A program made the translations under genes and the position numbers. From NCBI RefSeq assembly GCF_029223865.1, contig NZ_CP119520.1, positions 434,001 to 498,000 on the forward strand: 64,000 nt of DNA, given 5' to 3'. This stretch comes from Telluria mixta. GTDB lineage: Bacteria; Pseudomonadota; Gammaproteobacteria; Burkholderiales; Burkholderiaceae_D. The notes below the pieces were generated by a model. That model had not been told where the DNA came from. It saw only the letters and a list, made by a program, of their open reading frames with translations, and searched no databases. Below are positions 5,677-41,744 of the stretch, piece by piece; the first letter of the stretch is position 1; every line of letters starts with the position of its first letter.

Positions 5677-5694
5677 CTGCTGCGAATCGAACAG
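5677..5694 (+). promoter_or_regulatory. Upstream activator site, 18-bp palindromic motif (RND operon)
   Basis: CTGCTGCGAATCGAACAG. It is nearly identical to a copy before the receptor gene at 38.8 kb (CTGCTGCGAAATCAACAG). It lies between the divergent sigma-54 activator gene and the RND operon, 28 bp upstream of a -24/-12 match. Confidence 0.55.
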
Positions 5695-5722
5695 TTTTTG
5701 CCGCTGCGGCGGCCCAAATCCC

Positions 5723-5738
5723 GGGCATGGTTGTTGCA
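5723..5738 (+). promoter_or_regulatory. Sigma-54 (-24/-12) promoter for the RND operon
   Basis: GGGCATGGTTGTTGCA against the consensus TGGCACGN4TTGCA: the GG-N10-GC core is exact, with two other mismatches. Transcription would begin near 5749, about 50 bp before the mdtA start. The adjacent palindromic site supports it. Confidence 0.55.
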
Positions 5739-5798
5739 GGATGACGACGATCGACAGGCCGTCGCATTTCGACGACGGCCGCAAATCCGGGACCAGGA

Positions 5799-6977
5799 AT
5801 GACAGACAAGAGACGATGGCGCCGCGCCGCGGGCGTGCTCGGGCTGACCGCGTGCGTGGGTGTGGCGGGCTGCGGCCAGCAGGTGAAGGAAGAACGCCAG
5901 GGCGCCGCCGCCAACCGGCCCGTGCCCGTGGCCGTCGCGGCGGCCGGCAAACAGGACGTGCGCGTCGTGCAGAGCGCGCTCGGGACGGTGGTGCCGCAGG
6001 CGTCCGTCGTCGTGCGTGCGCGCGTCGGCGGCCAATTACAAAAGGTGCTGTTCCAGGAGGGTCAATTGGTCAAAGCCGGCGAGCTGCTGGCGGAAATCGA
6101 CCCGCGCCCGTTCGTGGCGCAGCTGACGCAGGCGGAAGGACAACTCAAGCGCGATCTCGCGCTGTTGAAGAACGCGCAGGCCGACCTCGCGCGCTACCAG
6201 GGCCTGCGCGCCCACGACTCGATCTCGGAACAGGCGCTCGACAACCAGGCCGCGCTCGTGCAGCAGTACCAGGGCACGGTGCAGGCCGACCAGGGCGTCG
6301 TCGACAACGCGCGCCTGCAACTGAGCTTCGCCCGCATCACGGCGCCCGTGTCGGGCCGCATCGGCCTGCGCCAGGTCGACGTCGGCAACATCGTCGCACC
6401 GAACGACGCGGCGGGCCTCGCCGTCATCACGGCCGTACAACCCATTGCCGCGCTGTTCTCGCTGCCGGAAGACCAGTTGCCCGCCATCGCCGCGCAGCTC
6501 GCCGGCGCGCAGAAGCAGGGCCGCGTGCTCGCGGTGGAAGCGTGGGACCGCGCCGGCACGCGCAAGCTCGCGCAGGGCCGGCTGGAGACGATCGACAACC
6601 AGATCGATCCTGCCACCGGCACCATCCGCTTCAAGGCGCAGTTCGCGAACGCGGACGGCGCGCTGTACCCCAACCAGTTCGTCAACGTGCGCCTGCTCGT
6701 CGAGACGCGGTCGGCACAAATCGTCGCGCCCAGCGTCGCGATCCAGAACGGCAACCAGGGGCCGTTCGTGTACGTGGTCGGCACCGATAAAACCGTTGCG
6801 CTGCGCCCCGTCACGCTGGGCCCCGTCGACGGCGACAAGACGACCGTCACCACGGGCCTGGAACCCGGCGAACAGGTCGTCGTGACGGGCACGGACCGGT
6901 TGCGCAACGGTGCGAAAGTGGTGCTGCCGGAGTCCCGCAAGGCACGCGCGACCGCACGCGCGGAGATCGCGGGATGA
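5799..6977 (+). CDS. mdtA: RND efflux periplasmic adaptor (MdtA type), lipoprotein
   Basis: 392 residues. The N-terminus has a basic start, a hydrophobic stretch and a lipobox ending VAGC (Cys about 25), so it is probably an inner-membrane-anchored lipoprotein. The order is typical of membrane-fusion proteins: beta-barrel/lipoyl segment ([18 protein letters not shown]), alpha-hairpin (residues about 100-165), second lipoyl half ([20 protein letters not shown]) and a C-terminal membrane-proximal domain. It links the inner-membrane RND pumps to the outer-membrane channel. Its stop overlaps the next start by four bases (ATGA), so the operon is translationally coupled. A sigma-54 promoter match lies about 60 bp upstream, which is unusual for an mdt operon. 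Confidence 0.92.
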
Positions 6978-9900
6978 ACCCGTCGCGCGTCTTCATCCGG
7001 CGTCCGGTGGCGACGCTCCTGCTGATGCTGGCCGTGCTGCTGTCCGGCCTCCTCGCGTACCGGCTGCTGCCGCAGTCCGCGCTGCCCCAGGTCGACTATC
7101 CGACGATCCAGGTGTCGACCGGCTATCCGGGCGCCAGCCCGGACGTCGTCGCCACGGCCATTACCGCGCCGCTGGAACGCCAGTTCGGCGCCATCGCGGG
7201 CCTGAACCAGATGTCGTCGTCGAGTTCCGGCGGCGCGTCCGTGATCACCCTGCAGTTCGCGCTCGACGTGAGCCTCGACGTGGCCGAACAGTCCGTGCAG
7301 GCCGCCATCAACGCGGCCGCAAGCTACCTGCCGCAGGACCTGCCGTCGCCTCCCGTCTACAGCAAGGTCAATCCGGCCGACGCGCCCGTCCTCACGCTGG
7401 CCGTGCGCTCGGACACGCTGCCGCTGACACGCCTGCAGGACATCGTCGACACGTCGATGGCGCAAAAGATCGCGCAGGTGTCGGGCGTCGGCCTCGTGAG
7501 CCTCGCGGGCGGTCAGCGCCCGGCCGTGCGCATCCAGGTCAACCCGGCCGCGCTGGCCGCGTACGGCATCGGCTTCGACCAGCTGCGCGCGGCCATCGGC
7601 GCGGCCAACTCGAACCAGGCGAAGGGCAGCTTCGACGGCCCACTGCAGACCGCGGCGCTGGACGCCAACAGCCAGCTGCGCAGCGCCGGGGAATACCGGC
7701 AAGTGGTGCTGGCCACGCGCGCCGGCAACCCGGTGCACCTGGCCGACGTGGCCGACGTGCGCGAAGCGCCGGAAGACCTGCACCTGGCCGCGTGGGCGAA
7801 CGAACACCAGGCGATCCTCGTGAACATCCAGCGCCAGCCGGGCGCCAACGTGATCGATGTCGCGGAGCGCATCAAGGCGCTGCTGCCGTCCCTGCGCGCG
7901 GGGCTGCCGGCGAACGTCGAGCTGACGGTGCTGTCCGACCGCACGACCACCATCCGCCAGGCCGTGCACGACGTGCAGTTCGAACTGGTGCTGGCGATTG
8001 CGCTGGTCGTGATGGTCATCGCGCTGTTCCTGCGCAGCCTGTCCGCCACGCTGATCCCCAGCCTCGCGGTGCCGCTGTCGCTCGTCGGCACGTTCGGCGT
8101 GATGTATCTCGCCGGCTTCAGCCTGAACAACCTCACCTTGATGGCGCTGACGATCGCCACGGGCTTCGTCGTCGACGACGCCATCGTCATGATCGAGAAC
8201 ATCGCGCGCCACGTGGAGGAAGGGGAATCGCCGCTGGACGCCGCGCTGAAGGGCTCGAAGCAGATCGGTTTCACGATCATCTCGCTGACCTTCTCGCTGA
8301 TCGCGGTATTGATCCCGCTGCTGTACATGGCGGACGTCGTCGGACGGCTGTTCCGCGAATTCGCGGTCACGCTCGCCGTCGCCATCCTGATCTCCGCGGT
8401 GGTATCGCTGACGCTCACGCCGATGCTGTGCGCGCGCCTGCTGAAGCACGAGAAGCCCGCGGAGGATCCGTTCTTCGACGCGGTATTGAAGCGCTACGGC
8501 CGCGCGCTGGAATGGGTGCTGCGCCACCAGGGCGCGACACTCCTCGTCACGTTCGGCACCGTCGTGCTGACGGCGCTGCTGGCCTGGGGCATCCCGAAAG
8601 GCTTTTTCCCCGCCCAGGACACGGGCGCCATCCAGGTCATCACGGAAGGCCCGCAGACGACATCGTTCGGCGCGATGGCCGAGCGCCAGCAGGCCCTCGC
8701 ACAAGCGCTGCTGCGCGATCCGGCCGTGGCGAGCCTGTCGTCCATCGTCGGCATCGACGGCACCAACGCCACCGTCAACAGCGGCCGCCTGCTCGTCAAT
8801 TTGAAACCGCACGAGGAACGCGGCGACCGCGCGCCGGCCATCATCGCGCGCCTGCGCCAGGCCGCGCACGACGTCCCCGGCATCACGGCATATTTCCAGC
8901 CGCTGCAGGACCTGACGGTGGAAGACCGCGTCAGCCGCACGCAATACCAGTACCTCGTCGAGAGCATGGACGGCGACGCGCTGGCGGCGTCCCTGCCGCC
9001 GTTGCTGACGGCCCTCCGTTCGCTGCCGCAGCTCACGGACGTCGCGAGCAACGTGCAGGACGCGGGCCTGAAAGCCTACCTGGAAATCGACCGCGACGCC
9101 GCGAGCCGCCTCGGCGTGACGGTGGCCGCCATCGACGACGCGTTGTACAGCGCGTTCGGCCAGCGCCTCGTGTCGACCATCTTCACGCAGACGAACCAGT
9201 ACCGCGTGGTGCTGGAAGCGCAGCGCGACCGCGACGCCGGCCTGAACGCGCTCGGCAGCCTCTACGTCAGCGGCGCGAACGGCCGCCAGATTCCGCTCGC
9301 CACGCTCGTGCGCGTGCGCGAGGCGCCCGCAAACCTGCTGATCAGCCGAGAAAAACAGTTCCCCGCCGCGACCATCTCGTTCAACCTGGCCGACGGCTAT
9401 TCGCTGGGCGACGCCGTGGCCGCCATCGAGGCGAAGCGCGCCACGCTCGACCTGCCCGAAGCCGTGCAGACCCGCTTCCGCGGCGCGGCCCTCGCGTTCC
9501 GCACGGCGCTGTCGAACGAATTCTTCCTGATCGTCGCGGCGCTCGTGACCATGTACATCGTGCTGGGCGTGCTGTACGAAAGCTTCGTGCATCCGCTCAC
9601 GATCCTGTCGACCCTGCCTTCCGCCGGTATCGGCGCGCTGCTCGCGCTGTGGGTCGGCGGCCACGACCTGAGCGTGATCGCCATCATCGGCATCGTCCTG
9701 CTGATCGGCATCGTGCAAAAGAACGCCATCATGATCATCGACTTCGCGCTGGAGGCGGAGCGCAGCCGCGGCATGCACCCGCGCGCCGCGATCTACGAAG
9801 CCTGCCTGCTGCGCCTGCGCCCGATCCTGATGACGACCCTGGCCGCGCTGTTCAGCGCCGTGCCGATGATCTTCGGCAGCGGCCCCGGTGCCGAGCTGCG

Positions 9901-10075
9901 CGAGCCGCTCGGCATCGCCCTTGTCGGCGGCCTGCTGGCCAGCCAGGCGCTGACCCTGTTCACGACGCCCGTCATCTACCTCGCCTTCGACCGGCTGGGC
10001 CGCAGGTTCGGCCGCGCGTCCGCCGTCCCGGCCGTGCGCCCGGGCGAGGCGCAGGTGGTGGAGCTGCGCGCGTGA
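6974..10075 (+). CDS. mdtB: RND efflux pump subunit, MdtB type
   Basis: 1033 residues, the normal length for an RND transporter. The N-terminus ([20 protein letters not shown]) is the canonical first transmembrane helix. The protein has two repeated halves, each with a large periplasmic loop; the [13 protein letters not shown] segment (about residue 400) carries the proton-relay aspartates of TM4, and the second half contains [20 protein letters not shown]. With MdtC it forms a heterotrimer (in E. coli two MdtB and one MdtC) that exports bile salts, novobiocin and other amphiphiles. Coupled to mdtA (ATGA overlap) and to mdtC (overlap at 10072-10075). Confidence 0.92.
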
Positions 10076-13000
10076 ATTTCTCCGCCTTCTTCATCCGCCG
10101 GCCTGTCGCCACGATCCTGCTCACCCTGGCCATCGCGCTGCCCGGCATGCTCGCGTATGCGCTGCTGCCGCGTGCCGCCCTGCCCCAGGTCGACTTTCCC
10201 ACGCTGAGCGTGCAGGCCAACCTGCCCGGCGCCAGTCCGGAAACGATGGCCGCGACGGTGGCGACGCCGCTCGAGCGCGTGCTAGGGCGTATTGCCGGCA
10301 TCACGGAAATGACGTCGTCGAGCACGCAGGGCGTCACGCGCATCAACCTGCAGTTCGACATCGACCGCGACATCGACGGCGCCGCGCGCGACGTGCAATC
10401 GGCGATCAACGCGGCCCGCGCGCTGCTGCCGACGATGCCGAACAACCCGTCGTACCGCAAGTCGAATTCGGCCGGCCCGCCCGTCATGACCTTCGCGCTG
10501 CGCTCCCAAACGCACACGCAGGACCAGCTGTACGACATCGCCTTCACCCTGCTGGGCCAGAAGGTCTCGCAAGTCAAGGGCGTGGGCCAGGTTAACGTCA
10601 ACGGCAGCTCGCTGCGCGCCGTGCGCATCGAGGTCGACCCGAACGTCCTGAACCAGTATGGCATCGGCCTGGAAAAGGTGCGGCAGGCGCTGGCCGCCGC
10701 CAACGTCAACGCCCCCAAGGGCTTCGTCGAGGACGGGCAGCGGCGCTGGCAGATCGACGTCAACGACCAGGCACGCCAGGCGCGCGACTACCGCAACCTC
10801 GTCGTCGCGTGGAACAAGGATGCGCCGGTGCGCCTGTCCGACGTGGCGCGCGTGCGCGACGCCGTGCAGGACGTGCGCAACGCCGGCACGTACGGCGGCA
10901 AGCCGGCCGTGATCATCGCGGCGTTCGCGCAGCCGGGCGCCAACGTGATCGCCACCGTCGACGCGCTGCGCGCCCTGCTGCCGCAACTGCGTGCGATGGC
11001 GCCGGCCGGCGTCGACGTCGACGTCGCGATCGACCGCAGCTCCACCATCCGCAAGTCGCTGACGGAAGTGCAGGAAACGCTGGCCATCGCCGTCGTGCTC
11101 GTGGTCGCGGTGACGTTCCTGTTCCTGCGCAACGGCCGCGCGACGCTGATCCCCAGCATCGCGATCCCCGTCTCGCTGCTGGGCACGCTCGCCATCATCT
11201 ACCTGCTCGGCTACAGCCTGAACAACCTGTCGCTGATGGCGCTGATCATCTCGACGGGCTTCGTCGTCGACGATGCGATCGTCGTCGTGGAAAACGCCGT
11301 CAAGCACATCGAGGAAGGCATGGCGCCCATCGCCGCCGCGCTGCGCGGTGCCAGGGAAGTAGGCTTCACCGTACTCGCGATGAGCGTGTCGCTCGTGGCC
11401 GTGTTCATCCCGCTGCTGTTCATGGGCGGCATCGTCGGGCGGCTGTTCCGCGAATTCGCCGTCACCCTGTCACTCGCCGTGCTGATCTCGCTCGTGATCT
11501 CGCTGACGACGACGCCGATGCTGTGCGCGCTGCTGCTGCGCCCTGTCGACACGCATGCGAAGCCCGGCCGTCTGGACCGTCTGATGGACGTCCCGCTTGC
11601 GTGGTACCGCCGCACTTTGGACTGGACCTTGCGCCACGCGGGGTTCACCCTGCTCGTGCTGGCGGCCACGATCGCGCTGAACACGTGGCTGTACACGATC
11701 GTGCCGAAGGGGTTCTTTCCGATCCAGGACACGGGCCGGCTGATGGGCTCCTTCCAGGCCGACCAGTCCACGTCGTTCCAGGCGATGCGGCAAAAAATCG
11801 ACCGCATGCTGAAAATCCTCGGCGAGGATCCGGACATCGATAATTTTTATGAATACTCGGGCGGCTTCGGCAGCCAGCAGACGAATACGGGCACCGTGTT
11901 CGTGCGCCTGAAGCCGCTGGGCGAACGCAAGGCCAGCGCACAGGAGATCATCGCGCGCCTGCGTCCGAAGCTGGCCGGCGTGCCCGGCATCTCGCTGTTC
12001 CTGTCGTCGAACCAGGACCTGACGATCGGTGCCCGTTCCAGCGGCGCGCAATACCAGTACACGATCCTGTCGAGCGACCTGGACGCGTTGCGCACGCTCG
12101 CCCCGCGCCTGCGCGGCGCCTTGGCCAGGCTGCCGCAGCTCACGGACGTCAACAGCGACTTCCAGGACAAGGGCCTGCAGACGCGCCTCGTCGTCGACCG
12201 TGCGGCCGCCGCGCGGCTCGGCATCACGGCGCGCCACATCGACGCCACCTTGAACGACGCGTTCGGCCAGCGCCCCGTCTCCACGATCTACGAACCGCTG
12301 AACCAGTACTTCGTCGTCCTCACCCTGCTGCCGCAATTCACGCAGGATGCCGCCGCGCTGAACCACGTCTACCTGACGGGTGCCGACGGCGCGAAGGTGC
12401 CGCTGGCCGCGATCAGCCACTGGGAACGGCAAACGGCACCGCTGGCCATCAACCACCAGGGCCCGGCCGCCGCGACGACCGTCTCGTTCAACCTCGCGCC
12501 GGGCGTCACGCTCGACCAGGCCGCGGCACTCGTCGACAAGGCGTTCGCGGGCCTGAATCCGCCGGACAGCGTCACGGGCCGCTTCGCCGGTGCCGCCCAG
12601 GTGTTCCAGGATTCGCTCGCCACGCAGCCGTGGCTGATCCTCGCCGCGCTGCTGTCCGTGTACATCGTGCTCGGCATCCTGTACGAAAGCGCGATCCACC
12701 CGCTGACGATCCTGTCGACCCTGCCGTCGGCGGGCGTCGGTGCGCTACTGGCGCTGATGGCGTGCGGCACGGAGTTCTCGCTGATCGCGTTCATCGGCGT
12801 GATCCTGCTCGTCGGGATCGTCAAGAAGAACGCGATCATGATGATCGACACGGCGCTGCAGCTGGAACGCGACCAGGGCCTCGGGCCGGAGGCGTCGATC
12901 CGTCAGGCTTGCCTGCTGCGCTTCCGTCCGATCCTGATGACGACCCTGGCCGCGCTGTTCGGCGCCCTGCCGCTGGCCCTCGGCGCCGGCGACGGCGCGG

Positions 13001-13158
13001 AGCTGCGCCGGCCGCTGGGCCTCGCCATTGTGGGCGGCCTGCTGTTCAGCCAGGCCCTCACGCTCTACACGACACCGGTCGTCTACCTGGCGCTCGACCG
13101 CGTGCGCCACAAGGCGCTGCGCCGCTTCAAGCGCGCGCCGGTGCTCGCCACAACCTGA
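10072..13158 (+). CDS. mdtC: RND efflux pump subunit, MdtC type
   Basis: 1028 residues from GTG 10072, which overlaps the mdtB stop (GTGA). The reading frame stays open leftwards through mdtB, giving a spurious 2082-codon frame, but homology begins at [20 protein letters not shown]. The TM4 region [19 protein letters not shown] and the second-half segment [20 protein letters not shown] are intact. It is closely related to the preceding MdtB, and the pair is typical of the MdtBC class, where only one subunit is thought to carry the active proton relay. The ribosome site lies within the end of mdtB. Confidence 0.92.
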
Positions 13159-13169
13159 ATCCTCACGCA

Positions 13170-14561
13170 ATGAACGCTCCTCGACTTACCCTGCTCTCCC
13201 TGCTCCTCGCCGGCTGCGCCACCGGCCCCGCCTATCATCGTCCCGACGTCCCGGTCACCACGTACAAGGAGACGACCACACTGCCCGCCTGGAAGTATGC
13301 CGAACCCGCGGAACTCGACACGCAGGGCCGTTGGTGGCTCGGGTATGGCGATACGCACCTGTCCGAACTCGTCGAGGAAGCGGGCCGGTCCAACGATACG
13401 ATCCGCATCAGCGAAGCGCGCTACCGCCAGGCGCTGGCCCTGGCCGCATCCTCCCGGGCCAGTCTGTTCCCGTTCCTCGACCTGACCGGCGGCGCGAAAC
13501 GCGGCACGGGCAACGGTGCCGGCGGCGCCGGCAATGTCGCGACAAGCCGCCGCATCGCCCTGGAAGCGGGCTGGGAAGCGGACGTGTGGGGCCGCGTGCG
13601 CAACCAGGCCGAATCGAGCCGACTGGCAGCTGAAGCCGGTGCCGCCGACCTGGCCGCGGCCCGGCTCGCGGTGCAGGCGACGGTGGCACAGCTGTACTTT
13701 CAGGTCCGTGTCGTCGACGCCCAGCAACGCCTGCTGGACAGCACGGTGCAGGCGTACGAATGCAGCCTGCAACTGACGCAGCAGCGCCTGCGCTTCGGCG
13801 TCGCCACGCCGGCCGACGTCGCGCAGGCACAGGCGCAGTTGAAAACCACGCAGGCGCAGGCCGTCGACAACCGCGTGCAGCGCAGCCAGCTGGAACATGC
13901 GCTGGCCGTGCTGCTGGGCCGCGAACCTGCCTCGTTCGCGCTTGCCCCGGCCGCACGGGTGGCGGTCAAGGTCCCCGTCGTCCCCGCCGGCGTGCCGTCC
14001 AAGCTGCTGGAACGCCGCCCCGACGTGGCGGCCGCCGAGCGCCGCGTAGCCAGCGCCAATGCGAGCGTCGGTGCCGCGCAGGCCGCGTACTTCCCCGACC
14101 TGACGCTGTCCGCCATGGGCGGTTTCCAGAGCACGGACGGCGCGCACTGGCTGACGGTGCCGCACCGCGTGTGGGCGCTCGGTCCCGCGCTGGCCGTCAC
14201 CCTGTTCGACGGCGGCGCACGGCGCGCGCAGACGGACAGCGCCATCGCCGTCTACGACGCGACCGTGGCCGGCTACCGCCAGACGGTGCTGGACAGCGTG
14301 CAGGAAGTGGAAGATGCGCTGGCCCTGCTGGCGGGCCTGGAACAGGAATCGGAACTGCTGGAGGCGGCCGTGCAGGCGTCGCGCGAATCGGAGCGCCAGA
14401 TGCTGGCGCGCTACCGGGCCGGCACGACCGACTACCTGAGCGTGGTGACGGTACAGGCGACGGCGCTGGCGGCCGAACGCAGCGCGCTCGCTGCGCAGGG
14501 GCGCAGGCTGGCGGCGAGCGTCAGCCTGGTCAAGGCGTTGGGTGGCGGGTGGAACGGGTAA
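13170..14561 (+). CDS. Outer-membrane efflux channel lipoprotein (OprM/NodT family)
   Basis: 463 residues from ATG 13170, twelve bases after mdtC. A lipobox (LLLAGCATGPAYHRPDVP) marks it as an outer-membrane lipoprotein. Two outer-membrane-efflux repeats follow; the diagnostic ERRPDVAAAERRVASANASVG lies at about residue 285-305 and FDGGARRAQ at about 350. It forms the trimeric TolC-like duct through which MdtABC discharges. Classical E. coli mdtABC uses TolC encoded elsewhere, so the dedicated channel makes this a self-contained export machine. It converges with metY; the two stop codons are adjacent (14561/14562) with no terminator space. Confidence 0.9.
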   Translation: MNAPRLTLLSLLLAGCATGPAYHRPDVPVTTYKETTTLPAWKYAEPAELDTQGRWWLGYGDTHLSELVEEAGRSNDTIRISEARYRQALALAASSRASLFPFLDLTGGAKRGTGNGAGGAGNVATSRRIALEAGWEADVWGRVRNQAESSRLAAEAGAADLAAARLAVQATVAQLYFQVRVVDAQQRLLDSTVQAYECSLQLTQQRLRFGVATPADVAQAQAQLKTTQAQAVDNRVQRSQLEHALAVLLGREPASFALAPAARVAVKVPVVPAGVPSKLLERRPDVAAAERRVASANASVGAAQAAYFPDLTLSAMGGFQSTDGAHWLTVPHRVWALGPALAVTLFDGGARRAQTDSAIAVYDATVAGYRQTVLDSVQEVEDALALLAGLEQESELLEAAVQASRESERQMLARYRAGTTDYLSVVTVQATALAAERSALAAQGRRLAASVSLVKALGGGWNG

Positions 14562-17325: not shown

Positions 17326-17329
17326 GAAT

Positions 17330-32764: not shown

Positions 32765-32780
32765 TGGCACGGTAGTTGCA
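32765..32780 (+). promoter_or_regulatory. Sigma-54 promoter of the rhodanese/cytochrome b561 operon
   Basis: TGGCACGGTAGTTGCA: exact match to TGGCACGN4TTGCA. Predicted start near 32791, 27 bp before ATG 32818. Confidence 0.85.
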
Positions 32781-32817: not shown

Positions 32818-33309
32818 ATGAACATCCTTAAGACCACCATCGCCGCCACCCTGCTCCTCGCCGGCGCCGCATCGTTCGCCCAGGAAGCGGCAGCGCCGGC
32901 CGCCGCCAAACCGGCCGCTGCACCGCAGCCGTGGACCTACAAGACGAAGCAGCTCTCGCGCGCCGAGATCGACAAGCTGCTGCTCCAGCCGGGCAAGGTG
33001 CTGGTGCTCGACGTGCGCCGTCCGGACGAACTGCCGTCCAAGGGTTCGTTCCCGGTCTTCCTGAGCATCCAGAACGCGGACCTCGAGAAGTACCTGAAAT
33101 ACATCCCGAAAGACCGCCAGATCGTGACCGTGTCCAACCGCGCCCACCGCGCCGGCGCCGCGGGCGACCTGCTGACGCTGCGCGGCTTCAAGGTCGCGGG
33201 TGCGGCCGGCACGCTGGACTACGAAGAGCAAGGCGGCGTCGTCGAACACATCAAGCCGCCCGCGCCGCCGGCCGCCGCACCGGCACCGGCCGTGGCCCAG
33301 GCGCAGTAA
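32818..33309 (+). CDS. Exported rhodanese-like domain protein without the catalytic cysteine
   Basis: 163 residues: signal peptide to about residue 22 (AASFAQ), an Ala/Pro-rich linker, a rhodanese fold (VLVLDVRRPDELPSKGSFPV at about 61-80) and an Ala/Pro tail. Where rhodaneses carry the CXXGXR sulfur-transfer loop this protein reads VSNRAHRAGAAGDLL, with no cysteine anywhere in the mature chain. It therefore cannot carry persulfide and may be a binding or scaffold module. First gene of a sigma-54-driven rightward operon with cytochrome b561 and a ScsB/DsbD-like reductant. Confidence 0.82.
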   Translation: MNILKTTIAATLLLAGAASFAQEAAAPAAAKPAAAPQPWTYKTKQLSRAEIDKLLLQPGKVLVLDVRRPDELPSKGSFPVFLSIQNADLEKYLKYIPKDRQIVTVSNRAHRAGAAGDLLTLRGFKVAGAAGTLDYEEQGGVVEHIKPPAPPAAAPAPAVAQAQ

Positions 33310-33321
33310 CCGTTCGTGACG

Positions 33322-34134
33322 ATGGCCATGAATTACCGCACCGCCGCCAAGGCAGACCTTTATCCGAGCAGCCCCGTCGCGGCGCCGACGGCGCACGCGA
33401 CCCGCATCCGCCTGTGGGACCTGCCGGTCCGCATCTTCCACTGGTCCCTCGTGATCGCCGTCCTCGTGGCCTTCGTCACCGCCAAGCTGGGCGGCGACTG
33501 GATGGACTGGCACGGCCGCGCGGGCCTGGCCATCGTCGGCCTCGTGACGTTCCGCCTCGTGTGGGGCATCGTGGGCTCGACCCATGCCCGCTTCCTGAGC
33601 TTCGCCCCGACGCCGGCGCGCCTGCGCGCCTACCTGACGGGCCGCTGGCACGGCATCGGCCACAACCCGCTGGGCGCGCTGTCCGTGTTCGGCCTCCTCG
33701 GCCTGCTGGCAGTGCAGGCGGGCACCGGCCTGTTTTCCAACGACGACATCGCGTTCGACGGGCCGCTCTCAAGCCTCGTCGAAAAAGCGCGTTCGGACAG
33801 CCTGACGGGCCTGCACCACCAGTTGTCGGACGTGCTGCTCGTGCTGCTCGGATTGCACATCCTCGCGATCGTGTTCTACCTGGTCGTCAAGAGGCACAAC
33901 CTGATCAAGCCGATGGTCACCGGCTGGAAGCACGCGCAGGGCCGCGTCGCACCGGCGCCGAAGACGCGCGGCGGCAGTCCGCTCGGTCTCGTCATCGCGC
34001 TGCTCGTCGCGGCGGCGGTCACGTATGCGGCCAGCGGCAAGCTGCTGCATCAACCGCCTCCGGCGCCCGCGCCCGCGGCCGCGCCGGCGGCGTCCCCTCC
34101 ACCGACTACCTACAGCAGCACGCCAGGCTGGTAA
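33322..34134 (+). CDS. Membrane cytochrome b561-type heme protein
   Basis: 270 residues from ATG 33322; an in-frame GTG at 33316 and ATG at 33328 are alternatives. Four transmembrane helices with heme-ligating histidines in RIFHWSLVIAVLVAF (about 37), MDWHGRAGLAIVG (about 61), GLHHQLSDVLLVLLGLHIL (about 165-183). A fifth hydrophobic helix (LGLVIALLVAAAVTYAA) and a Pro/Ala-rich tail follow. Such proteins pass electrons between the quinone pool and periplasmic cytochromes, so this is the likely membrane link for the soluble c-type cytochromes of the divergent operon. Twelve bp after the rhodanese-like gene. Confidence 0.83.
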   Translation: MAMNYRTAAKADLYPSSPVAAPTAHATRIRLWDLPVRIFHWSLVIAVLVAFVTAKLGGDWMDWHGRAGLAIVGLVTFRLVWGIVGSTHARFLSFAPTPARLRAYLTGRWHGIGHNPLGALSVFGLLGLLAVQAGTGLFSNDDIAFDGPLSSLVEKARSDSLTGLHHQLSDVLLVLLGLHILAIVFYLVVKRHNLIKPMVTGWKHAQGRVAPAPKTRGGSPLGLVIALLVAAAVTYAASGKLLHQPPPAPAPAAAPAASPPPTTYSSTPGW

Positions 34135-34140
34135 TTCCCA

Positions 34141-36249
34141 ATGCAACGTTTGACCTCTTTTTGCCGGCGCACCCTCGGTGCGCTGGCGTTTTTTTTCATG
34201 GGGCTGGTCACGGCCGCTCCCGCCATCACCGACACCGCGGCCACCGCCCACGTGCGCATCCGCCTGCTGGCCGCGGCCGACGCCGTGCATCCCGGCGAGC
34301 GGATCCTGTTCGGCGTCGAGCAGACGCTCGATCCGGAATGGCACACCTACTGGATCAATCCCGGCGAGACGGGCGTGCCCACGCGGATTGCCTGGGACCT
34401 GCCGGCCGGCGCCAGTGCCGGCGCCATCGCCTGGCCGGTGCCGGAGCGCTTTCGCACGGGGCCCGTCACGAGCTACGGCTACGCGGGACGCGCGACCTTG
34501 CTGTCGACCTTGACGGTCCCGCAAGACGCCCGGCCCGGCACGACGTTTCCGGTGCGGGCGCGCGTGAGCTGGCTGGTGTGCAAGGACGTGTGCATTCCGC
34601 AGCAGGCGGAGGTCGGCCTCGCGCTGCCCGTGCTGGCCGTCGGCATGCCGTCCGGCGCCGGCGCGCTGGCAGTGGGGCCCGCGCACGCGGCTTTGCCGGC
34701 GGCGGCGCCGGGCACCGTCCATGCGGCGACGGATGGCAAGGCGGTCGCACTGACCGTAGCCGGCGCGGGCGTGCGCACCGCGGATCTCGAAGATGCGTGG
34801 TTCTATGACGACGCGCGCGGCCGCATCGCGCCGGGTGCCCCGCAAGCGGCGCGCATCGACGGCGACCGCCTGGTGGTGCGGCTGCGCGCGGGTGAGCAGG
34901 CCGGCGCGCGCCTGACCGGCGTGCTGGTGGTGAAAACGCACACGGCCGCGCGCGGTTACGCCATCGACACGGCGCTCGCCGCGAGCACGGCACCCATCGC
35001 GCTGCCGGAGGACGCGGCGCCGGCGGCCGACGCATCGCTGCCGCTGGCCCTGCTCCTTGCGCTGCTGGGCGGCCTGGTGCTGAACCTGATGCCGTGCGTG
35101 TTTCCGGTCCTGTCGATCAAGGCGCTGTCCCTGCTCGATCACGCGCGCGACGATCCGCGCACGGCGCGCCTGCACGGCGTCGCGTACACGCTGGGCGTGC
35201 TGGCCAGCTTCGCGCTGCTGGGTGTCGCGCTGATCCTGCTGAAGGCGGGCGGCGCGCAGGCCGGCTGGGGCTTCCAGTTCCAGTCGCCCACGTTCGTGCT
35301 GGCCACGGCCTACCTGATGTGCGCCGTCGGGCTGAACCTGTCGGGCGTGTTCGAGGTGGGGGGCACGCTCGCTGGCGTCGGCGACTCGCTCGCGTCCCGT
35401 GCCGGCTACGCGGGCAGCTTTTTCACGGGCGTGCTAGCCACCGTGGTCGCGACGCCGTGCACGGCGCCGTTCATGGGCGGTGCCGTCGCGTACGCGCTCG
35501 CGCAGCCGCCCGCCGTGCTGGTGGCCGTGTTCCTGGCGATGGGTTTCGGGCTCGCCCTGCCCTATCTGCTGCTCAGCGCACGTCCGGTGCTGCAACGGCA
35601 CCTGCCCCGTCCCGGTCCCTGGATGGTGCGCGCGCGCCAGGCGTTCGCATTCCCGATGTACGGTGCGGCCGTGTGGCTCGTGTGGGTGCTGGCGCGGCAG
35701 AACGGCGTGGATGCCGGCGCCGCCGCGCTGGGCGGCATGGTGGCGCTCGCGTTCGCGGCCTGGTTGTATGGCGCCACGCGCTTTGCGTCCGCGTCGATGC
35801 GCGTCGCCGGCGGCATCGGCGCGGCCCTGGTCGTCGTCGCGGCGCTGGCGGTGGGCCATGCCGGCATCCAGCGCGGACAACCGGTCGCCACGACCGACGC
35901 CGGCTGGACGCCGTACAGCGCCGAACGCCTGCAGGCGCTGCGTGCGGCCGGCAAGCCGGTGTTCGTGAACCTCACGGCGTCCTGGTGCATCACCTGCCTC
36001 GTCAACGAAAGAGTCGCGCTGAGCGACGGCGCGGTCGACGCCGCGTTCCGCCAGGCCGGCATCGCCTACCTGAAAGGCGACTGGACGAGCCAGGACGAAC
36101 GCATTACCGCCTTGCTCACGCAATTCGGCCGCAGCGGCGTACCGCTCTACATCTTCTATCCGGGGGGCCGGGATTCCCGGCCGGTGGTGCTGCCGCAGCT
36201 GCTCACGCCCGGCATCGTGCTCGACACAATCGGTACAGCGCGCAATTGA
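34141..36249 (+). CDS. Thiol:disulfide interchange protein, ScsB/DsbD type
   Basis: 702 residues: signal peptide, an N-terminal periplasmic domain with SWLVCKDVCIPQ (C147/C151), a DsbD membrane domain of eight helices beginning LVLNLMPCVFPVLSIKAL (about 311) with the partner cysteine in VVATPCTAPFMGG (about 440), and a C-terminal thioredoxin domain with WCITC (C616/C619). It moves reducing power from cytoplasmic thioredoxin to periplasmic thiol proteins; CcmG and the exported peroxiredoxin are candidate clients. It starts 6 bp after the cytochrome b561 gene, so it belongs to the same sigma-54 operon. No clear ribosome site precedes it. Confidence 0.87.
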   Translation: MQRLTSFCRRTLGALAFFFMGLVTAAPAITDTAATAHVRIRLLAAADAVHPGERILFGVEQTLDPEWHTYWINPGETGVPTRIAWDLPAGASAGAIAWPVPERFRTGPVTSYGYAGRATLLSTLTVPQDARPGTTFPVRARVSWLVCKDVCIPQQAEVGLALPVLAVGMPSGAGALAVGPAHAALPAAAPGTVHAATDGKAVALTVAGAGVRTADLEDAWFYDDARGRIAPGAPQAARIDGDRLVVRLRAGEQAGARLTGVLVVKTHTAARGYAIDTALAASTAPIALPEDAAPAADASLPLALLLALLGGLVLNLMPCVFPVLSIKALSLLDHARDDPRTARLHGVAYTLGVLASFALLGVALILLKAGGAQAGWGFQFQSPTFVLATAYLMCAVGLNLSGVFEVGGTLAGVGDSLASRAGYAGSFFTGVLATVVATPCTAPFMGGAVAYALAQPPAVLVAVFLAMGFGLALPYLLLSARPVLQRHLPRPGPWMVRARQAFAFPMYGAAVWLVWVLARQNGVDAGAAALGGMVALAFAAWLYGATRFASASMRVAGGIGAALVVVAALAVGHAGIQRGQPVATTDAGWTPYSAERLQALRAAGKPVFVNLTASWCITCLVNERVALSDGAVDAAFRQAGIAYLKGDWTSQDERITALLTQFGRSGVPLYIFYPGGRDSRPVVLPQLLTPGIVLDTIGTARN

Positions 36250-36510: not shown

Positions 36511-36921
36511 TCACCCCCCAGGCTGTGTCAGCACCGACAACTTGGTCACACCCGACCGCTGGATGTTCGCGATCACCTTGGCGACCGCGCGATACGGCAC
36601 GCCTTCGTCGGCCTGCAGGCTTACCGCCAGCTCGGGATTCGTGGCCACCACGCTTTTCAGCTCCGGCTCCAGCGCGGCCAGGTCCACTTCGCGCTTGTCG
36701 ATGTAGATCTTGCTGGCGCCATCGACGCTGACCGTCACGGACTTCGTCGGGTTCGCGGGCTCCGTGGTGGAGGTCTTGGGCAGGTTGATCCGCACCGCGT
36801 TGTTCAGCAGCGGCGCGGTCAGGATGAAGACGACCATCAGCACGAGCATCACGTCGACGAGCGGCGTGATGTTGATTTCGCTGACGACGTCGCTGCTGTC
36901 TTTTCCGGTCGAGAAGGCCAT
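36511..36921 (-). CDS. exbD: Proton-channel energiser subunit ExbD
   Basis: 136 residues: a short cytoplasmic N-terminus, one transmembrane helix with the proton-translocating aspartate in ITPLVDVMLVLMVVFI (D23), and a periplasmic domain ending VTKLSVLTQ. With ExbB it converts proton-motive force into TonB movement. Its start overlaps the exbB stop at one base. The gene order tonB-exbB-exbD sits opposite the two receptor genes, a self-sufficient uptake module. Confidence 0.92.
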   Translation of the reverse strand: MAFSTGKDSSDVVSEINITPLVDVMLVLMVVFILTAPLLNNAVRINLPKTSTTEPANPTKSVTVSVDGASKIYIDKREVDLAALEPELKSVVATNPELAVSLQADEGVPYRAVAKVIANIQRSGVTKLSVLTQPGG

Positions 36922-37643
36922 TACGCTGCCGCTCCCACAGGCTGGGCACCCACGTGCACCGGTTTGCCGGAAGGACGCACGGTTGCCTTGGTCACCCGGA
37001 AGCCATTCTTCTGCGCCAGGTTGACGAAGTCGGTGGCGAAATTATCCAGCTCGGCCGCCTTCACTTTCAGGCGGCGCACATAGTAGTTGAATGCCAGCAC
37101 GGCCGGCACGGCGACGGCGATGCCGATGCCCGTGGCGATCAGCGCTTCGCCGATCGGACCGGCGACCACTTCGATACTGGCCGATCCGCTCTTGCCGATG
37201 GCGCCCAGTGCGTTGATGATGCCGAACACCGTGCCGAACAGGCCGACGAACGGCGCCGTGCTGCCGATCGAGGCCAGCACCGCGAGGCCGCTTTCCAGCG
37301 ACTGGTATTCCTTCTGGATCTGCTGGCGCAGCTGGCGCTCCAGCAGTTCCTGGCGATCCCAGCTGTGCTCGAGGTCGCTGCCAGAGCCGTCGGTGTCATT
37401 CACGTACAGCGCTTCGAAGCCGACGTTGGCCAGGCGCGATTTAGGGCTGGCATCGCTGCCCAGCGCCGTCGCCGCGTCCAGCGAGTTGGCACTCCAGAAC
37501 TTCTGCGTAAACTGTTTATCCTGTTTGCCGACACGCGCGTGCTGCACGGCCTTGGCCAGGATCAGGACCCAGGTGACGATGGAGAACAGCACCAGTCCGT
37601 ACAGGGCGCCTTGAACGATGAGATTGAGGTATTGAGGAGACAT
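36921..37643 (-). CDS. exbB: Proton-channel energiser subunit ExbB (MotA/TolQ/ExbB family)
   Basis: 240 residues with three transmembrane helices (about 10-32, 120-142 and 167-189). The MotA/TolQ/ExbB core is clear in LASIGSTAPFVGLFGTVFGI (about 122-141) and GIGIAVAVPAVLAFNYYVRR. It forms the pentameric channel around ExbD that drives TonB. 28 bp downstream of tonB. Confidence 0.92.
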   Translation of the reverse strand: MSPQYLNLIVQGALYGLVLFSIVTWVLILAKAVQHARVGKQDKQFTQKFWSANSLDAATALGSDASPKSRLANVGFEALYVNDTDGSGSDLEHSWDRQELLERQLRQQIQKEYQSLESGLAVLASIGSTAPFVGLFGTVFGIINALGAIGKSGSASIEVVAGPIGEALIATGIGIAVAVPAVLAFNYYVRRLKVKAAELDNFATDFVNLAQKNGFRVTKATVRPSGKPVHVGAQPVGAAA

Positions 37644-37671
37644 GGAGATGAGCGCCTATAGAGTAAAAAAA

Positions 37672-38451
37672 TCAGGAAAGCTTGAAGTTGAGGGGAACGG
37701 TGACCCAGCCGTCGATCGGGGTCTGGCCGCGCCGCGCCGGATCGAAGGTCCACTGCAGGACCGCCTTGATGGCCGCGTCGTCCAGGATCTTGAAGCCCGT
37801 GGACTTGTCGACCGTGACGTTGTCCGCCTTGCCCGATGCCAGCACGTGCACCTTGAGGATCACGCGACCCTGCATGCCGCGGTCCTGGGCGAGGGCCGGA
37901 TAATCCGGTGCCGGATTGTTGCGGTAGCCGACGAAGCCCCGTGCTTCCGTCACCGGTTCCGGCGGCGGCGGTGGCGGCGGCGCGGCCACGACGGGCGCCG
38001 GTGCCGGTGCGGGTGCGGTGGCCACCTGCACCGTGTCGGCCGTCGGGGGACCGTTGTCGACGGCCTGCGGGCTGACCACCGGCAGCGGCGGCGCGGCCTT
38101 CACCGGTGCCGCCTTGACGACGCGCGGCTGCGGTTTCGGCGGTTCCGGCGGGGGTGGCGGTGGCGGTGGCGGCGGTGCGATCTCGATCGCAAGCGGCTGC
38201 ACCTTGGGCTGCTCAGGCAGCGTGGTGGCCGGCCGGTGCAGCGCGACGATCACGCCGACGTGCGCCAGTGCGGTCAGGCCGATCAGCGCGGCCAGGCCCC
38301 CCTTGTTGCGCGCGCCGGCGGCCCGCAGCTGGCGGATCGCCGCACTGACCGGTTGCTGTTCCACCGCGAGACGGGGCGCCGGGCGGACGGCGCGACGCAC
38401 CGCGGCCTTCCTGGGCGAGTATTTAATGCTCTCAAAACTCAAAGTGGTCAT
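37672..38451 (-). CDS. tonB: TonB energy-transducing protein
   Basis: 259 residues from ATG 38451. A long (about 50 residue) basic cytoplasmic N-terminus precedes one transmembrane anchor (LAALIGLTALAHVGVIVAL, with the conserved His). A periplasmic proline-rich spacer (ten consecutive prolines near residue 95, then PEPPKPQPR) and a C-terminal TonB domain (YPALAQDRGMQGRVILKVHV ... LQWTFDPARRG) follow. It transmits energy to the TonB boxes of outer-membrane receptors, here probably the two adjacent paralogues. Transcription from a sigma-54-type promoter 35 bp upstream, rather than a Fur-controlled one, argues against an iron role. Confidence 0.9.
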   Translation of the reverse strand: MTTLSFESIKYSPRKAAVRRAVRPAPRLAVEQQPVSAAIRQLRAAGARNKGGLAALIGLTALAHVGVIVALHRPATTLPEQPKVQPLAIEIAPPPPPPPPPPEPPKPQPRVVKAAPVKAAPPLPVVSPQAVDNGPPTADTVQVATAPAPAPAPVVAAPPPPPPPEPVTEARGFVGYRNNPAPDYPALAQDRGMQGRVILKVHVLASGKADNVTVDKSTGFKILDDAAIKAVLQWTFDPARRGQTPIDGWVTVPLNFKLS

Positions 38452-38485: not shown

Positions 38486-38501
38486 TGCAGGAAGCGTGCC
38501 T
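38486..38501 (-). promoter_or_regulatory. Sigma-54 promoter of tonB-exbB-exbD
   Basis: Minus strand AGGCACGCTTCCTGCA: two mismatches to TGGCACGN4TTGCA, with the GG and GC dinucleotides correctly spaced. Predicted start near 38475, 24 bp before tonB. The gap 38452-38793 (342 bp) is regulatory throughout and holds no gene. Confidence 0.6.
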
Positions 38502-38529: not shown

Positions 38530-38570
38530 CTGCTGATCTCGCGACAGCGCGGCTGCTGCGAAATCAACAG
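38530..38570. promoter_or_regulatory. Pair of 18-bp palindromic activator sites (tonB / receptor 1)
   Basis: CTGCTGATCTCGCGACAG at 38530-38547 and CTGCTGCGAAATCAACAG at 38553-38570, starts 23 bp apart. The second differs from the 5677 site only in the centre. They lie between two divergent sigma-54 promoters. Confidence 0.6.
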
Positions 38571-38724: not shown

Positions 38725-38740
38725 TGGCACGCTCCTTGCG
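38725..38740 (+). promoter_or_regulatory. Sigma-54 promoter of TonB-dependent receptor 1
   Basis: TGGCACGCTCCTTGCG: exact -24 (TGGCACG) and -12 (TTGC) elements. Predicted start near 38751, 43 bp before the gene. An AT-rich near-IHF palindrome (ATAAACGGTTTAT, 38704-38716) lies just upstream. Confidence 0.85.
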
Positions 38741-38793: not shown

Positions 38794-41625
38794 ATGACAC
38801 AAACGAATATCGCCGTTCGCCCGATGCCGTTCCGCCTTGCCCCCCTCGCCGCCGCGCTCGCGGGTCTCGGCCTGCTGTGCGGCGGAGCGGCCAACGCGCA
38901 GCAGGCAACGCCCACCGTGGCGGAACTGCAGGCGCAGCTTGCGCGCGTACAGGCGGAAAACGCCCAGTTGCGGCAGGCACTGGCCGGACAGACGAATGCA
39001 CCGGCGCCCGCCGCGCCGGCAGAAGCACAAGCGGTTGCCGCACAGCCCGCCGAGGAAGAGCCGCAAGCCCTGGGCGACGTCACCGTGCGCGGCAGGAAGA
39101 AGATCGAGACGCTGAAGGAAGTGCCGCTGTCGATCTCCGTCGTCAGCGGCGCGGAACTGGACCGCGAACTGGCGCAGGATCTCTCCGCCATCACCAAGCG
39201 CGGCGCGAACATCCAGTTCAACCAGAACAATACGCGCGGCGCCTCGCTGTCGATCCGCGGCCTGGGCAAGCGCTCGTTCACGGAAACGCAGGACCCCAGC
39301 GTGGGCATGGTCGTCGACGGCGTCGCGTACGGCCTCACGCAGCTCGCCAACTTCGACATCTACGACATCGATACGGTCGACGTCGTGCGCGGCCCGCAGG
39401 GCACGCTGGGCGGCAAGGGTGCCAGCTCCGGCGTCGTCTCGATCAATACGAAGCGGCCGGACTTTTATCCCAGTGCGGACTACCAGCTGGGGTTCGGCCA
39501 GCGCGACACCGTGATCGCCAAGGCCAACCTGGGCGGCCCCGTGATCGAGGACCTGCTGGCGTGGCGCGGCTCGTTCGTCGTCAACCGCAGCCGCGGCTTC
39601 TATGCGAACAATTTCGACACGAACTACAGCCTCTACAACAAGAACCGCGTCAGCGGCCGCGTCCAGTTCCTGTTCACGCCCACGGCCGGGTTCAACGCGC
39701 GCCTCAGCGCCGACCTGGAACCGCACGCGTCGCAGGTGCAGAACGGCCTCACCTTCTACCACAACCAGCCGGAGCGCTTCGCCGACGGCAGCCTGACCGA
39801 TCCGAGCGGCACCACCGTGCGCTCCAAGCTGACGGGCTACACCAACGCGGCCGGTGTCCGCACGCCGGGCCGGGCGTGGTTCGCGGGCCGCGATTTCAAC
39901 GGCACGCCGTACACGTACGAGAACAACTACATCGGCGACAACAACCTGAACTTCAACGAGAACCAGGGCCAGACGGTGTCGAACAAAGGCGCGTCGGCGG
40001 AACTGACGTGGAAGCTGCCCAATGCCACCCTCACCTCGCTGACGGCCACGCGCAAGTACAGCTTCGACGCGCACAATGACGAAGGCACGCCGTTCGACAT
40101 CAACCGCAACGGCGGCGGCGGCGTGTTCTACCAGCAGTGGAGCCAGGAATTCAAGCTGCAGTCGAAGCCGGGCGGCCCGTTCGACTACGTGACGGGCCTG
40201 TACTACCTGCAAACGAAGAACGACATCCAGTCCAAGACCGGCTGGGGATCCGATGCCGGCGCCTGGTTCGCGACGACCGCGCAATATGCGGCGCTCGACA
40301 CCAACGCGGGCACCAACAGGGGCGCTGGCCTGGCCCTGCTCGCGGACAGCCTGAACGACGGCATCGTCCAGGGCGACACATGGGTCAAGACGAAGAGCAC
40401 GGCGTGGTACGGCAACACGACGTGGCACATCGACGATGCGTTCGCGCTGACGGGCGGCCTGCGCGTGACGCACGAGAACCGCACGACGACGGACACGCGC
40501 TTCCTGGAGGCGAACGGCGCCGGTGGCGCGCTGAATCCGGTGACGGTGCGCGGCGTGGCGCTGGGCGGCTTCGGCACCGGCACGGGCGGCGCCCTGCTGG
40601 CCGGGAACTCGGCGGCGCAACTGCTTCTCGCGGACGCCGTCGCGAACCGCTACTTCGGCGTGAGTGCCGGCACCAATCCCGGCGATGCCTATAACAGTCT
40701 GACCGCAGCGCAGAAGGCGCAGGTCGCCGCGGCCAAGGCCGTGCGTGCGGGCCAGATCGGGCAAATCATCGGCGGCGTGGCGAGCCGCTACAACGACAAC
40801 CTGTTCACGGGCGTGATCAGCCCGTCGTGGCGCATCAGCGACCAATACACGACGTATGCGTCGTGGCAGTACGGCGAAAAGTCGGGCTCCGCGCTGAACG
40901 TCAACGGCGTGTCGGCCAACGTGCGGCCCGAGAAGACGAACGCGTTCGAGGTCGGCCTGAAATCCAGCCTGCTGAACAACACGCTGATCGTCAACACGGA
41001 CCTGTTCCTGATGAAGATCCGCGACTACCAGACCACCGTGCGCGTCGTCGACGAATTCACGACGCAGACGAACATCGCGAACGGCCAGGCCAATCCGACC
41101 GCCTACGTGTCGGCCCAGGGCAACGTGCCGAAGGCGCGGGCGCGCGGCTGGGAGTTCGACGGCGCGTACAGCGGCATCCCCAACCTGAACATCCGCTTCT
41201 CGGGCGCGTACAACGATGCGCGCTACGTCAGCTTCCCGCAGGCCGCCAAACCGGACGAACTGGGCTACCTGCCGGCCGCATACGTCGACCAGAGCGGCCT
41301 GACCTTGCCCGGCGCCGCGCGCTGGACGGGCAACCTGGGCGCCGAATACAAGCTGCCGATCCGGGGCGGCAACACGGTCCACGCCAGCTTCAATACCGCG
41401 TTCACGAGCCGCTACAACAACAGCGACACGCTGTCCGACTGGGGCTGGGTGCCGGGCAGCAGCACGACGGACCTCGCCATCGGCGTGAACACGAAGAGCA
41501 ACTTCGACGTGACCCTGATCGTGAAGAACCTCACCAACAGCCTCGCGCACGAGGCGGGCTGGGTCAGCTACGCGCCGAATCCGTATCCGCGCTGGATCGG
41601 TCTCGTGTTCAGCGGGAAGCTGTAA
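38794..41625 (+). CDS. TonB-dependent outer-membrane receptor 1, with N-terminal coiled coil
   Basis: 943 residues. A signal peptide ends near ANAQQA; next comes a short heptad-like coiled coil (TVAELQAQLARVQAENAQLR, about residues 39-58), an Ala/Pro-rich linker, then the plug domain (LGDVTVRGRKKIETLKEVPL onward; VVRGPQGTLGGKGASSGVV about 200) and a 22-stranded barrel ending in the C-terminal aromatic strand WIGLVFSGKL. The coiled coil before the plug is unusual for ordinary siderophore receptors. Substrate unknown; divergent tonB-exbBD, an exact sigma-54 promoter and the absence of a visible Fur box argue for a non-iron nutrient. Closely related to receptor 2. Confidence 0.88.
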   Translation: MTQTNIAVRPMPFRLAPLAAALAGLGLLCGGAANAQQATPTVAELQAQLARVQAENAQLRQALAGQTNAPAPAAPAEAQAVAAQPAEEEPQALGDVTVRGRKKIETLKEVPLSISVVSGAELDRELAQDLSAITKRGANIQFNQNNTRGASLSIRGLGKRSFTETQDPSVGMVVDGVAYGLTQLANFDIYDIDTVDVVRGPQGTLGGKGASSGVVSINTKRPDFYPSADYQLGFGQRDTVIAKANLGGPVIEDLLAWRGSFVVNRSRGFYANNFDTNYSLYNKNRVSGRVQFLFTPTAGFNARLSADLEPHASQVQNGLTFYHNQPERFADGSLTDPSGTTVRSKLTGYTNAAGVRTPGRAWFAGRDFNGTPYTYENNYIGDNNLNFNENQGQTVSNKGASAELTWKLPNATLTSLTATRKYSFDAHNDEGTPFDINRNGGGGVFYQQWSQEFKLQSKPGGPFDYVTGLYYLQTKNDIQSKTGWGSDAGAWFATTAQYAALDTNAGTNRGAGLALLADSLNDGIVQGDTWVKTKSTAWYGNTTWHIDDAFALTGGLRVTHENRTTTDTRFLEANGAGGALNPVTVRGVALGGFGTGTGGALLAGNSAAQLLLADAVANRYFGVSAGTNPGDAYNSLTAAQKAQVAAAKAVRAGQIGQIIGGVASRYNDNLFTGVISPSWRISDQYTTYASWQYGEKSGSALNVNGVSANVRPEKTNAFEVGLKSSLLNNTLIVNTDLFLMKIRDYQTTVRVVDEFTTQTNIANGQANPTAYVSAQGNVPKARARGWEFDGAYSGIPNLNIRFSGAYNDARYVSFPQAAKPDELGYLPAAYVDQSGLTLPGAARWTGNLGAEYKLPIRGGNTVHASFNTAFTSRYNNSDTLSDWGWVPGSSTTDLAIGVNTKSNFDVTLIVKNLTNSLAHEAGWVSYAPNPYPRWIGLVFSGKL

Positions 41626-41629
41626 GCGG

Positions 41630-41699
41630 CTGTTGAATTTTCAACAGTCTGCCTGATACGGGCCGTCGCGCTGTGGCTCCGCTGTTGCTCCGGCAACAG
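41630..41699. promoter_or_regulatory. Pair of 18-bp palindromic activator sites upstream of receptor 2
   Basis: CTGTTGAATTTTCAACAG at 41630-41647 and CTGTTGCTCCGGCAACAG at 41682-41699, both strong palindromes (arms CTGTTGAA/TTCAACAG and CTGTTGC/GCAACAG). Starts are 52 bp apart, five helical turns. The first begins four bases after the receptor 1 stop. Confidence 0.65.
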
Positions 41700-41728
41700 C
41701 GCGGGCCCGATTTCGCGTCATTTTCGGG

Positions 41729-41744
41729 TGGTACGGGATTTGCA
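41729..41744 (+). promoter_or_regulatory. Sigma-54 promoter of TonB-dependent receptor 2
   Basis: TGGTACGGGATTTGCA: one mismatch to TGGCACGN4TTGCA. Predicted start near 41755, 27 bp before ATG 41782 and 29 bp after the nearer activator site. Confidence 0.75.

Follow-up and report, generated by a model that had tools for sequence, protein, structure and literature searches.

A 40-kb gene cluster within the 64,000-nucleotide stretch of DNA analysed here (bases 434001-498000 of one 7.44-Mb contig; hereafter the window, in whose coordinates positions are given) is likely to be a sigma-54 regulon of the SfnR type, confined to this locus, that serves to scavenge a large sulfur compound and is cued by sulfate starvation. 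An initial annotation of this DNA had proposed a sigma-54 regulon with an upstream palindrome, and the reality of such a regulon is strongly supported by the conservation and spacing of its elements and by the presence of an RpoN gene in the genome.

All seven 18-bp palindromes of the cluster are intergenic, as that annotation had stated. Six fit CTGYTG-N6-SRACAG exactly, and the seventh, at 32688-32705 on the minus strand, reads CTGCTGAAAAGCGAACAC and departs from the pattern at one position. The candidate activator site of the RND operon (5677-5694, plus strand; CTGCTGCGAATCGAACAG) is identical in four genomes. A site at 32657-32674 (plus) lies 31 bp from that at 32688 in the divergent region common to the DUF1549 and rhodanese operons; sites at 38530-38547 and 38553-38570 (both plus) lie 23 bp apart between tonB-exbBD and the gene for TonB-dependent receptor 1; and sites at 41630-41647 and 41682-41699 (both plus), which precede receptor 2, are 52 bp apart. 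Two further palindromes in the window score 11/12: CCGTTGTGATAGCAACAG at 2923-2940, downstream of the sulfate-binding gene and also seen in G053 and G009, which is perhaps a terminator-like hairpin, and CTGTTATACGTACAACAG at 44544-44561, between receptor 2 and a flagellin gene.

Sigma-54 promoters carry GG at -24 and GC at -12 and lie near the consensus TGGCACG-N4-TTGC. Six -24/-12 elements in the window agree with it at 9 to 11 of 11 positions. Those of the rhodanese-b561-DsbD genes (TGGCACG-N4-TTGC; 32765-32779, plus) and receptor 1 (38725-38739, plus) are exact, those of the DUF1549 operon (TGGCGCG-N4-TTGC, conserved; 32550-32564, minus) and receptor 2 (41729-41743, plus) have one mismatch, and those of the RND operon (5723-5737, plus) and tonB-exbBD (38487-38501, minus) have two. 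The six promoters first reported are all present, two exact and two with one mismatch as had been said, and only the coordinates of the two minus-strand elements needed correction, to those given here.

Our overall confidence rests mainly on conservation, which is independent of the site pattern fitted on the window, and not on the chance figure given below. When the same intergenic regions were compared in three close Massilia genomes, a comparison that had been suggested at the outset, every orthologous site (21/21) and promoter (18/18) was found to recur. Across four genomes, 83/84 columns of the arms and 66/66 of the promoter elements are invariant, versus 31/42 in the spacers and 750/946 in the remaining intergenic DNA (Fisher P 4e-13); the six-base spacers drift like background intergenic DNA. 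The spacing of the sites is likewise as first described, both in its values and in its helical phasing. Two relatives have 41 bp in place of the window's 52 bp, about one helical turn less, and the 28 neighbouring site pairs that we collected are spaced by 18, 21, 23, 30, 31, 33, 41 or 52 bp, of which the 18-bp value rests on one degenerate match. Measured against a 10.5-bp period, the phase gives a Rayleigh value of 6e-8 for all 28 pairs, which are related and not independent, and of 0.03 for the eight distinct spacings.

The same features bear on whether the palindromes might be RNA hairpins, acting as terminators or attenuators, instead of protein sites. A hairpin would suit the site at 41630, which starts 5 bases past the stop codon of receptor 1 and whose six-base arms, like those at 41682, are perfectly complementary; however, no T run follows it, and the arms at 5677, 32657, 38530 and 38553 are imperfectly complementary. 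Transcripts do not end in divergent regions, which hold five of the seven sites, and in G053 the sequence CTGCTG...CAACAG at 41823 disrupts a pair while keeping the CTGYTG consensus. Together with the helical phasing, these observations make the hairpin explanation very improbable, and we treat the palindromes as candidate protein-binding sites.

CTGYTG-N6-CRRCAG, an arm pattern taken from other genomes, has four matches in the window, all of them non-coding; shuffling yielded a mean of 0.03 (30 whole-window shuffles), and no match arose when the non-coding part alone was shuffled 500 times. The non-coding DNA of the window holds four -24/-12 matches of at least 10/11, against a shuffle mean of 0.18, and the coding DNA holds none. 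Genome-wide, the pattern fitted on the window gave 49 exact matches at 46 places and was no commoner than its reversed control (46 matches), and a scan allowing one mismatch gave 765 matches, fewer than the control (1060). Six of the 46 exact places fall inside the window, which makes up 0.86% of the chromosome, and all six are non-coding; the corresponding Poisson P of ~4e-6 is optimistic because the pattern was fitted on the same window. Outside, 33 of 40 exact places score as coding and seven do not clearly do so (L003, L014, L018, L358, L360, L361 and L365). For none of these seven does a -24/-12 element in range reach 10 or 11 of 11: the full palindrome L018 seems to lie in non-coding DNA but lacks a good -24/-12 element nearby, and the promoter matches of L360 and L361 reach only 9/11. 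Both the genome-wide scan and the comparison of coding with intergenic DNA, which had been proposed as checks, speak for the motif within the window, where it is clustered and non-coding, and not beyond it, where exact places are mostly coding and no excess over the control is seen.

From the side of the promoters, 64 near-consensus -24/-12 elements were counted in the genome, a figure that leaves out weaker promoters such as those at 5723 and 38487. Of these, 42 look non-coding, and in three cases, each of them in the cluster, a 12/12 palindrome stands no more than 250 bp upstream. Palindromes scoring 11/12 upstream of other -24/-12 elements (L323, L325 and L335) were disregarded. The regulon is local, comprising one 40-kb cluster with its own activator gene and no genome-wide programme, and outside the cluster the site pattern is not in excess. 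The idea that the motif joins these genes into one programme accordingly survives for the cluster and fails for the genome at large.

That activator gene (4327-5550, minus strand), which the initial annotation did not mention, encodes an orphan, SfnR-like sigma-54 activator of 407 aa (PF00158, 8.3e-71) with a short N-terminus, an AAA+ domain bearing GAFTGA and a Fis-type helix-turn-helix. Receiver, PAS, GAF and V4R domains were not found by Pfam at E<=0.001 in the 485 aa read. The gene and the RND operon diverge from the intergenic region that holds site 5677. Among named genomes, the closest relatives found with the activator protein are Massilia, with three orthologues at 95-97% identity; 77 other loci from the same scan, at 40-57% identity, were left unused. 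The helix-turn-helix carries the pattern NQ-x3-[AG]-x2-L-x2-[ST]RN-x2-R, drawn by eye from the alignment and widened to cover P. aeruginosa 1 and Sphingobium, which is present in 38 of 39 relatives (the window activator included; G055 is the exception), among them both activators of the P. aeruginosa msu locus.

Strong matches to the sigma-54 activator domain occur at about 15 further places in the genome, and one of these activators could conceivably use the sites in place of the SfnR-like protein. We compared 14 of them, leaving out the place at 6049338-6049837, and none has the helix-turn-helix pattern. The co-occurrence of sites and activator across genomes speaks in the same direction. 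A loose composite of site and promoter matched 49 of 61 Massilia genomes, many via the same repeated sequences, and was therefore non-discriminating and rejected; with GCAA and CRTRCCA also required, a filter picked post hoc with the list already known, seven matches remained, in seven of the 61 genomes, all among the 11 that have the activator. An exclusive pairing is argued against by a full palindrome filtered out at that step (CTGTTGGAGTGACAACAG; G040:C1:139454-139504), which lies near a poorer -24 element in a Massilia genome where the activator was not detected at E<=1e-90. We consider it highly unlikely that the sites serve another activator of the genome, and take the product of 4327-5550 as the probable partner.

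Related activators at 67-71% identity were found 19 times, and a palindrome and -24/-12 element stand nearby in 11 of the 13 such loci read (one of them, G285, has its next called gene at a distance of 592 bp); no convincing site-promoter pair was found within 20 kb in G203 and G089, whose activators are 70-71% identical. Low-GC genomes were read by tblastn. Pfam searches on the neighbours at three loci (ten genes in G007, four in G005 and two in G229) identified luciferase-type monooxygenases, NMT1-type binding proteins, TonB receptors and ABC permeases, among others, and among more distant activators a TauD gene (G046) and an FMN reductase gene (G085) stand behind such sites. These organosulfur-type clusters of Massilia and other Oxalobacteraceae have the palindrome, the promoter type and a TonB receptor in common with the window, but they encode luciferase-type monooxygenases and ABC import where the window has a cytochrome-bearing periplasmic set.

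At 53-55% identity, the annotated neighbours of the activators are msuE/ssuD, sfnG/msuE/SfnB or ssuABCD. Plasmid record annotations give sfnG-msuE-SfnB in B. pyrrocinia, msuE-sfnG in B. glumae and ssuABCD in Sphingobium, and in P. aeruginosa msuE-ssuD is annotated with two activators, in agreement with a passage of PMC8234197 that groups msu with sfnR1 and sfnR2. The msu-linked activator of P. aeruginosa is 54.5% identical to that of the window. Its msuE promoter region (L230) contains palindromes CTGTTGCCCGGGCAACAG and CTGTTGCGTGGCTGACAG, scoring 12/12 and 11/12 and 31 bp apart, the spacing of the window sites 32657 and 32688, followed by TGGTACGGCCCTTGC, a promoter of the form TGGTACG-N4-TTGC. 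The sites at B. pyrrocinia msuE are CTGCTGCCTGATCAGCAG and TGGCACGCTCCTTGC; site scores are 11/12 in Sphingobium, only 10/12 in B. glumae and 12/12 in Variovorax, at a locus without annotation. The regulon had been put forward as a candidate new one; its motif is not new in kind, since it also stands before P. aeruginosa msuE and near genes beside related activators. The original SfnR papers reportedly describe SfnR binding sites; a published binding sequence was not found among the literature matches listed.

In a tree that left out P. putida SfnR and the G031:C11 activator fragment (58 aa, internal stop), 39 activator rows are grouped against four outgroup activators with support of 99/98, long branches being flagged. 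The window activator joins G089 at 98/84, a 14-row group is supported at 100/99, and the window activator falls in a sub-group whose members have luciferase-type neighbours. Because related activators share site-promoter pairs, and because the P. aeruginosa relative adjoins msuE-ssuD with such palindromes, we assign the putative regulon, judged by site, helix-turn-helix and tree, to the SfnR type. It resembles the SfnR/sfn-msu regulon of Pseudomonas, which serves sulfate starvation and the use of dimethyl sulfone and methanesulfonate, in the build and helix-turn-helix pattern of its activator and in having two palindromes, 31 bp apart, that precede a -24/-12 element, as at msuE. By contrast, the targets of Pseudomonas SfnR are flavin monooxygenases, whereas those in the window are TonB receptors, TonB-ExbBD, the PSCyt2/DUF1501/cytochrome set, rhodanese-b561-DsbD and an RND pump; sfn, msu and ssu monooxygenase genes, the targets expected of an SfnR regulon, were not found among the annotated cluster genes. 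As far as seen, this target set is new for the SfnR type.

The activator gene adjoins that of a periplasmic sulfate-binding protein (3140-4144, minus; NF008022 554 bits, cut-off 288; TIGR00971 519, cut-off 155.5), and an IS605-type OrfB (TnpB-like) gene lies at the cluster edge (1668-2867). An MdtABC/MuxABC-like RND efflux operon with an outer-membrane factor (5799-14561, plus) is followed by a gene for a MetY-type O-acetylhomoserine sulfhydrylase (14562-15833, minus; TIGR01326 664.6 bits, cut-off 495.1); neither metY nor the sulfate-binding gene has an assigned palindromic site. The cluster further includes a ccm (cytochrome c maturation) operon, at 15969-22382. The DUF1549 operon (23891-32476, minus) encodes a DUF1549/DUF1553 (PSCyt2-PSD1) protein with one CxxCH, a DUF1501 protein (28594-30081) with RRDFL and a Tat-type start, a cytochrome c', a dihaem cytochrome c, AhpC/TSA, SMP-30 and dienelactone hydrolase proteins, another cytochrome c' and a lectin-like protein. 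Genes for a rhodanese-like protein, a cytochrome b561 and a DsbD/ScsB-like protein occupy 32818-36249 (plus); the rhodanese-like protein (32818-33309) has no cysteine, with VTVSNRAHRAG at the usual active site, and is therefore not an ordinary sulfurtransferase. Last come tonB-exbB-exbD (36511-38400, minus) and TonB-dependent receptors 1 (38794-41625, plus) and 2 (41782-44526, plus). The description of these genes as unrelated-looking has an answer: the block includes a sulfate-binding protein and an O-acetylhomoserine sulfhydrylase, and much of the gene set is found again, as a block, in other genera.

This gene content could also be read as the same wiring answering another signal, with an SfnR-family activator that has come to control a periplasmic block concerned with redox, metals or efflux stress. 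The RND pump, the ccm genes, the cytochromes and the DsbD-like and AhpC/TSA proteins suit a redox or stress theme, and no C-S monooxygenase is found among the annotated cluster genes. Yet MetY is encoded in the block, a sulfate-binding gene lies in the stretch read at 8 (and only 8) of 15 loci with the PSCyt2-DUF1501 cassette, and related activators, with which the tree groups that of the window, lie near monooxygenase and NMT1-type genes. Antioxidant genes are themselves among the sulfate-starvation genes of P. aeruginosa according to passages of PMC12581299, which also state that sulfur starvation raises the transcripts of msuD and msuE as well as the proteins SfnR1 and MsuCDE. We therefore regard a different signal as unlikely, though not negligible, and sulfur starvation as the most likely cue.

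The PSCyt2-DUF1501 cassette is rare among the genomes sampled. PSCyt2 (PF07583) matched in 8/245 family genomes and 5/349 order genomes, the window's own genome being in both, which makes 12 distinct genomes with one match each, and all 12 have an SfnR-like activator match. At E<=1e-105 the activator was found in 27 family genomes, which include all eight with PSCyt2, while the other 19 lack PSCyt2; in the four additional order genomes the best activator match is 58-61% identical. The activator lies no more than 25 kb from PSCyt2 and DUF1501 in 10 of the 12 (the window, seven family genomes, G586 and G343) and is distant from the cassette in G311 and G357. Cassette and activator also occur together in the three close Massilia genomes, outside the 12. 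Repeated companions of the cassette are cytochromes c' and c, AhpC/TSA, dienelactone hydrolase, SMP-30 and a lectin-like protein, as well as rhodanese, b561, TonB-ExbBD and TonB receptors; ccm genes are also near it in G311, G357 and G343. In the tree, eight other cassette activators fall in a subclade separate from that of the window, so the SfnR-like activators that accompany the cassette come from two subclades or more. In the second, the palindrome is weaker: among 12 regions read, a 12/12 palindrome and a promoter are nearby in three (G046, G096 and G151), the palindrome scores 11/12 in seven, and the remaining two, G188 and G343, showed none by the cassette. The cassette of G586 likewise had no palindrome found beside it. 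Relatives of the DUF1501 protein at 80-90% identity were noted in Aquabacterium, Leptothrix, Zoogloea, Duganella and others, so that the sampled genomes probably understate how widespread the cassette is.

Type I (formylglycine) sulfatases carry the motif C/S-x-P-x-R. The predicted model of the DUF1501 protein (pLDDT 60.7, modest confidence) resembles sulfatases and phosphatases, but the protein differs from type I sulfatases and the alkaline phosphatase superfamily in having no [CS]xPxR match, and indeed no cysteine, and so is not a type I sulfatase by this measure; a common fold would by itself establish no function. The planctomycete-specific cytochrome domains PSCyt2-PSD1, and DUF1501, are known from Planctomycetes and Verrucomicrobia. 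In the window, the PSCyt2 gene adjoins a DUF1501 gene; the window cassette differs in its host, one of the Betaproteobacteria, and in being accompanied by a sigma-54 activator. Among the literature matches listed (titles, abstract starts and term counts), none linked DUF1501, DUF1549, DUF1553 or PSCyt2 to sulfur starvation, sulfatase or SfnR. The nearest remark, in a passage of PMC5615132, is that sulfatase genes are often near PSCyt genes, and PSCyt2 genes are described there as standing beside families of unknown genes.

Taken as a sulfur-scavenging regulon, the cluster could work as follows. Sulfate starvation would induce the activator gene through CysB-type control, and because the activator has no recognisable sensor domain, its activity is probably set by its amount. 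The activator would bind the 18-bp palindromes, singly or as helically phased pairs, and drive sigma-54 polymerase at the six -24/-12 promoters. The two TonB receptors, energised by the cluster's own TonB-ExbBD, may take up a large sulfur compound, which the DUF1501 protein, with its putative sulfatase/alkaline-phosphatase-like fold, and the cytochrome-bearing DUF1549/1553 protein would process in the periplasm, with electrons passing to the cytochromes and thiol-redox proteins in support. The RND pump may export by-products, and the sulfate-binding protein and MetY would capture and assimilate the sulfur set free. More tentatively, and with distinctly less confidence than in the regulon as a whole, we suggest that the PSCyt2(DUF1549)-PSD1(DUF1553)-DUF1501-cytochrome set could be a cytochrome-linked, formylglycine-independent periplasmic system, releasing the sulfur of large sulfated or organosulfur molecules that enter through TonB receptors.

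The site pattern combined with a -24/-12 element may help to locate SfnR-type regulons in Burkholderiales. An SfnR-type regulator placed over uptake, cytochromes and two uncharacterised families would be a testable clue to the role of those families, and because the cassette families are linked to such an activator, a defined test condition follows, namely sulfate starvation with organic sulfur. If the proposed role is true, sulfur scavenging would give a first function to these protein families, whose abundance in Planctomycetes and Verrucomicrobia is so far unexplained by any role.
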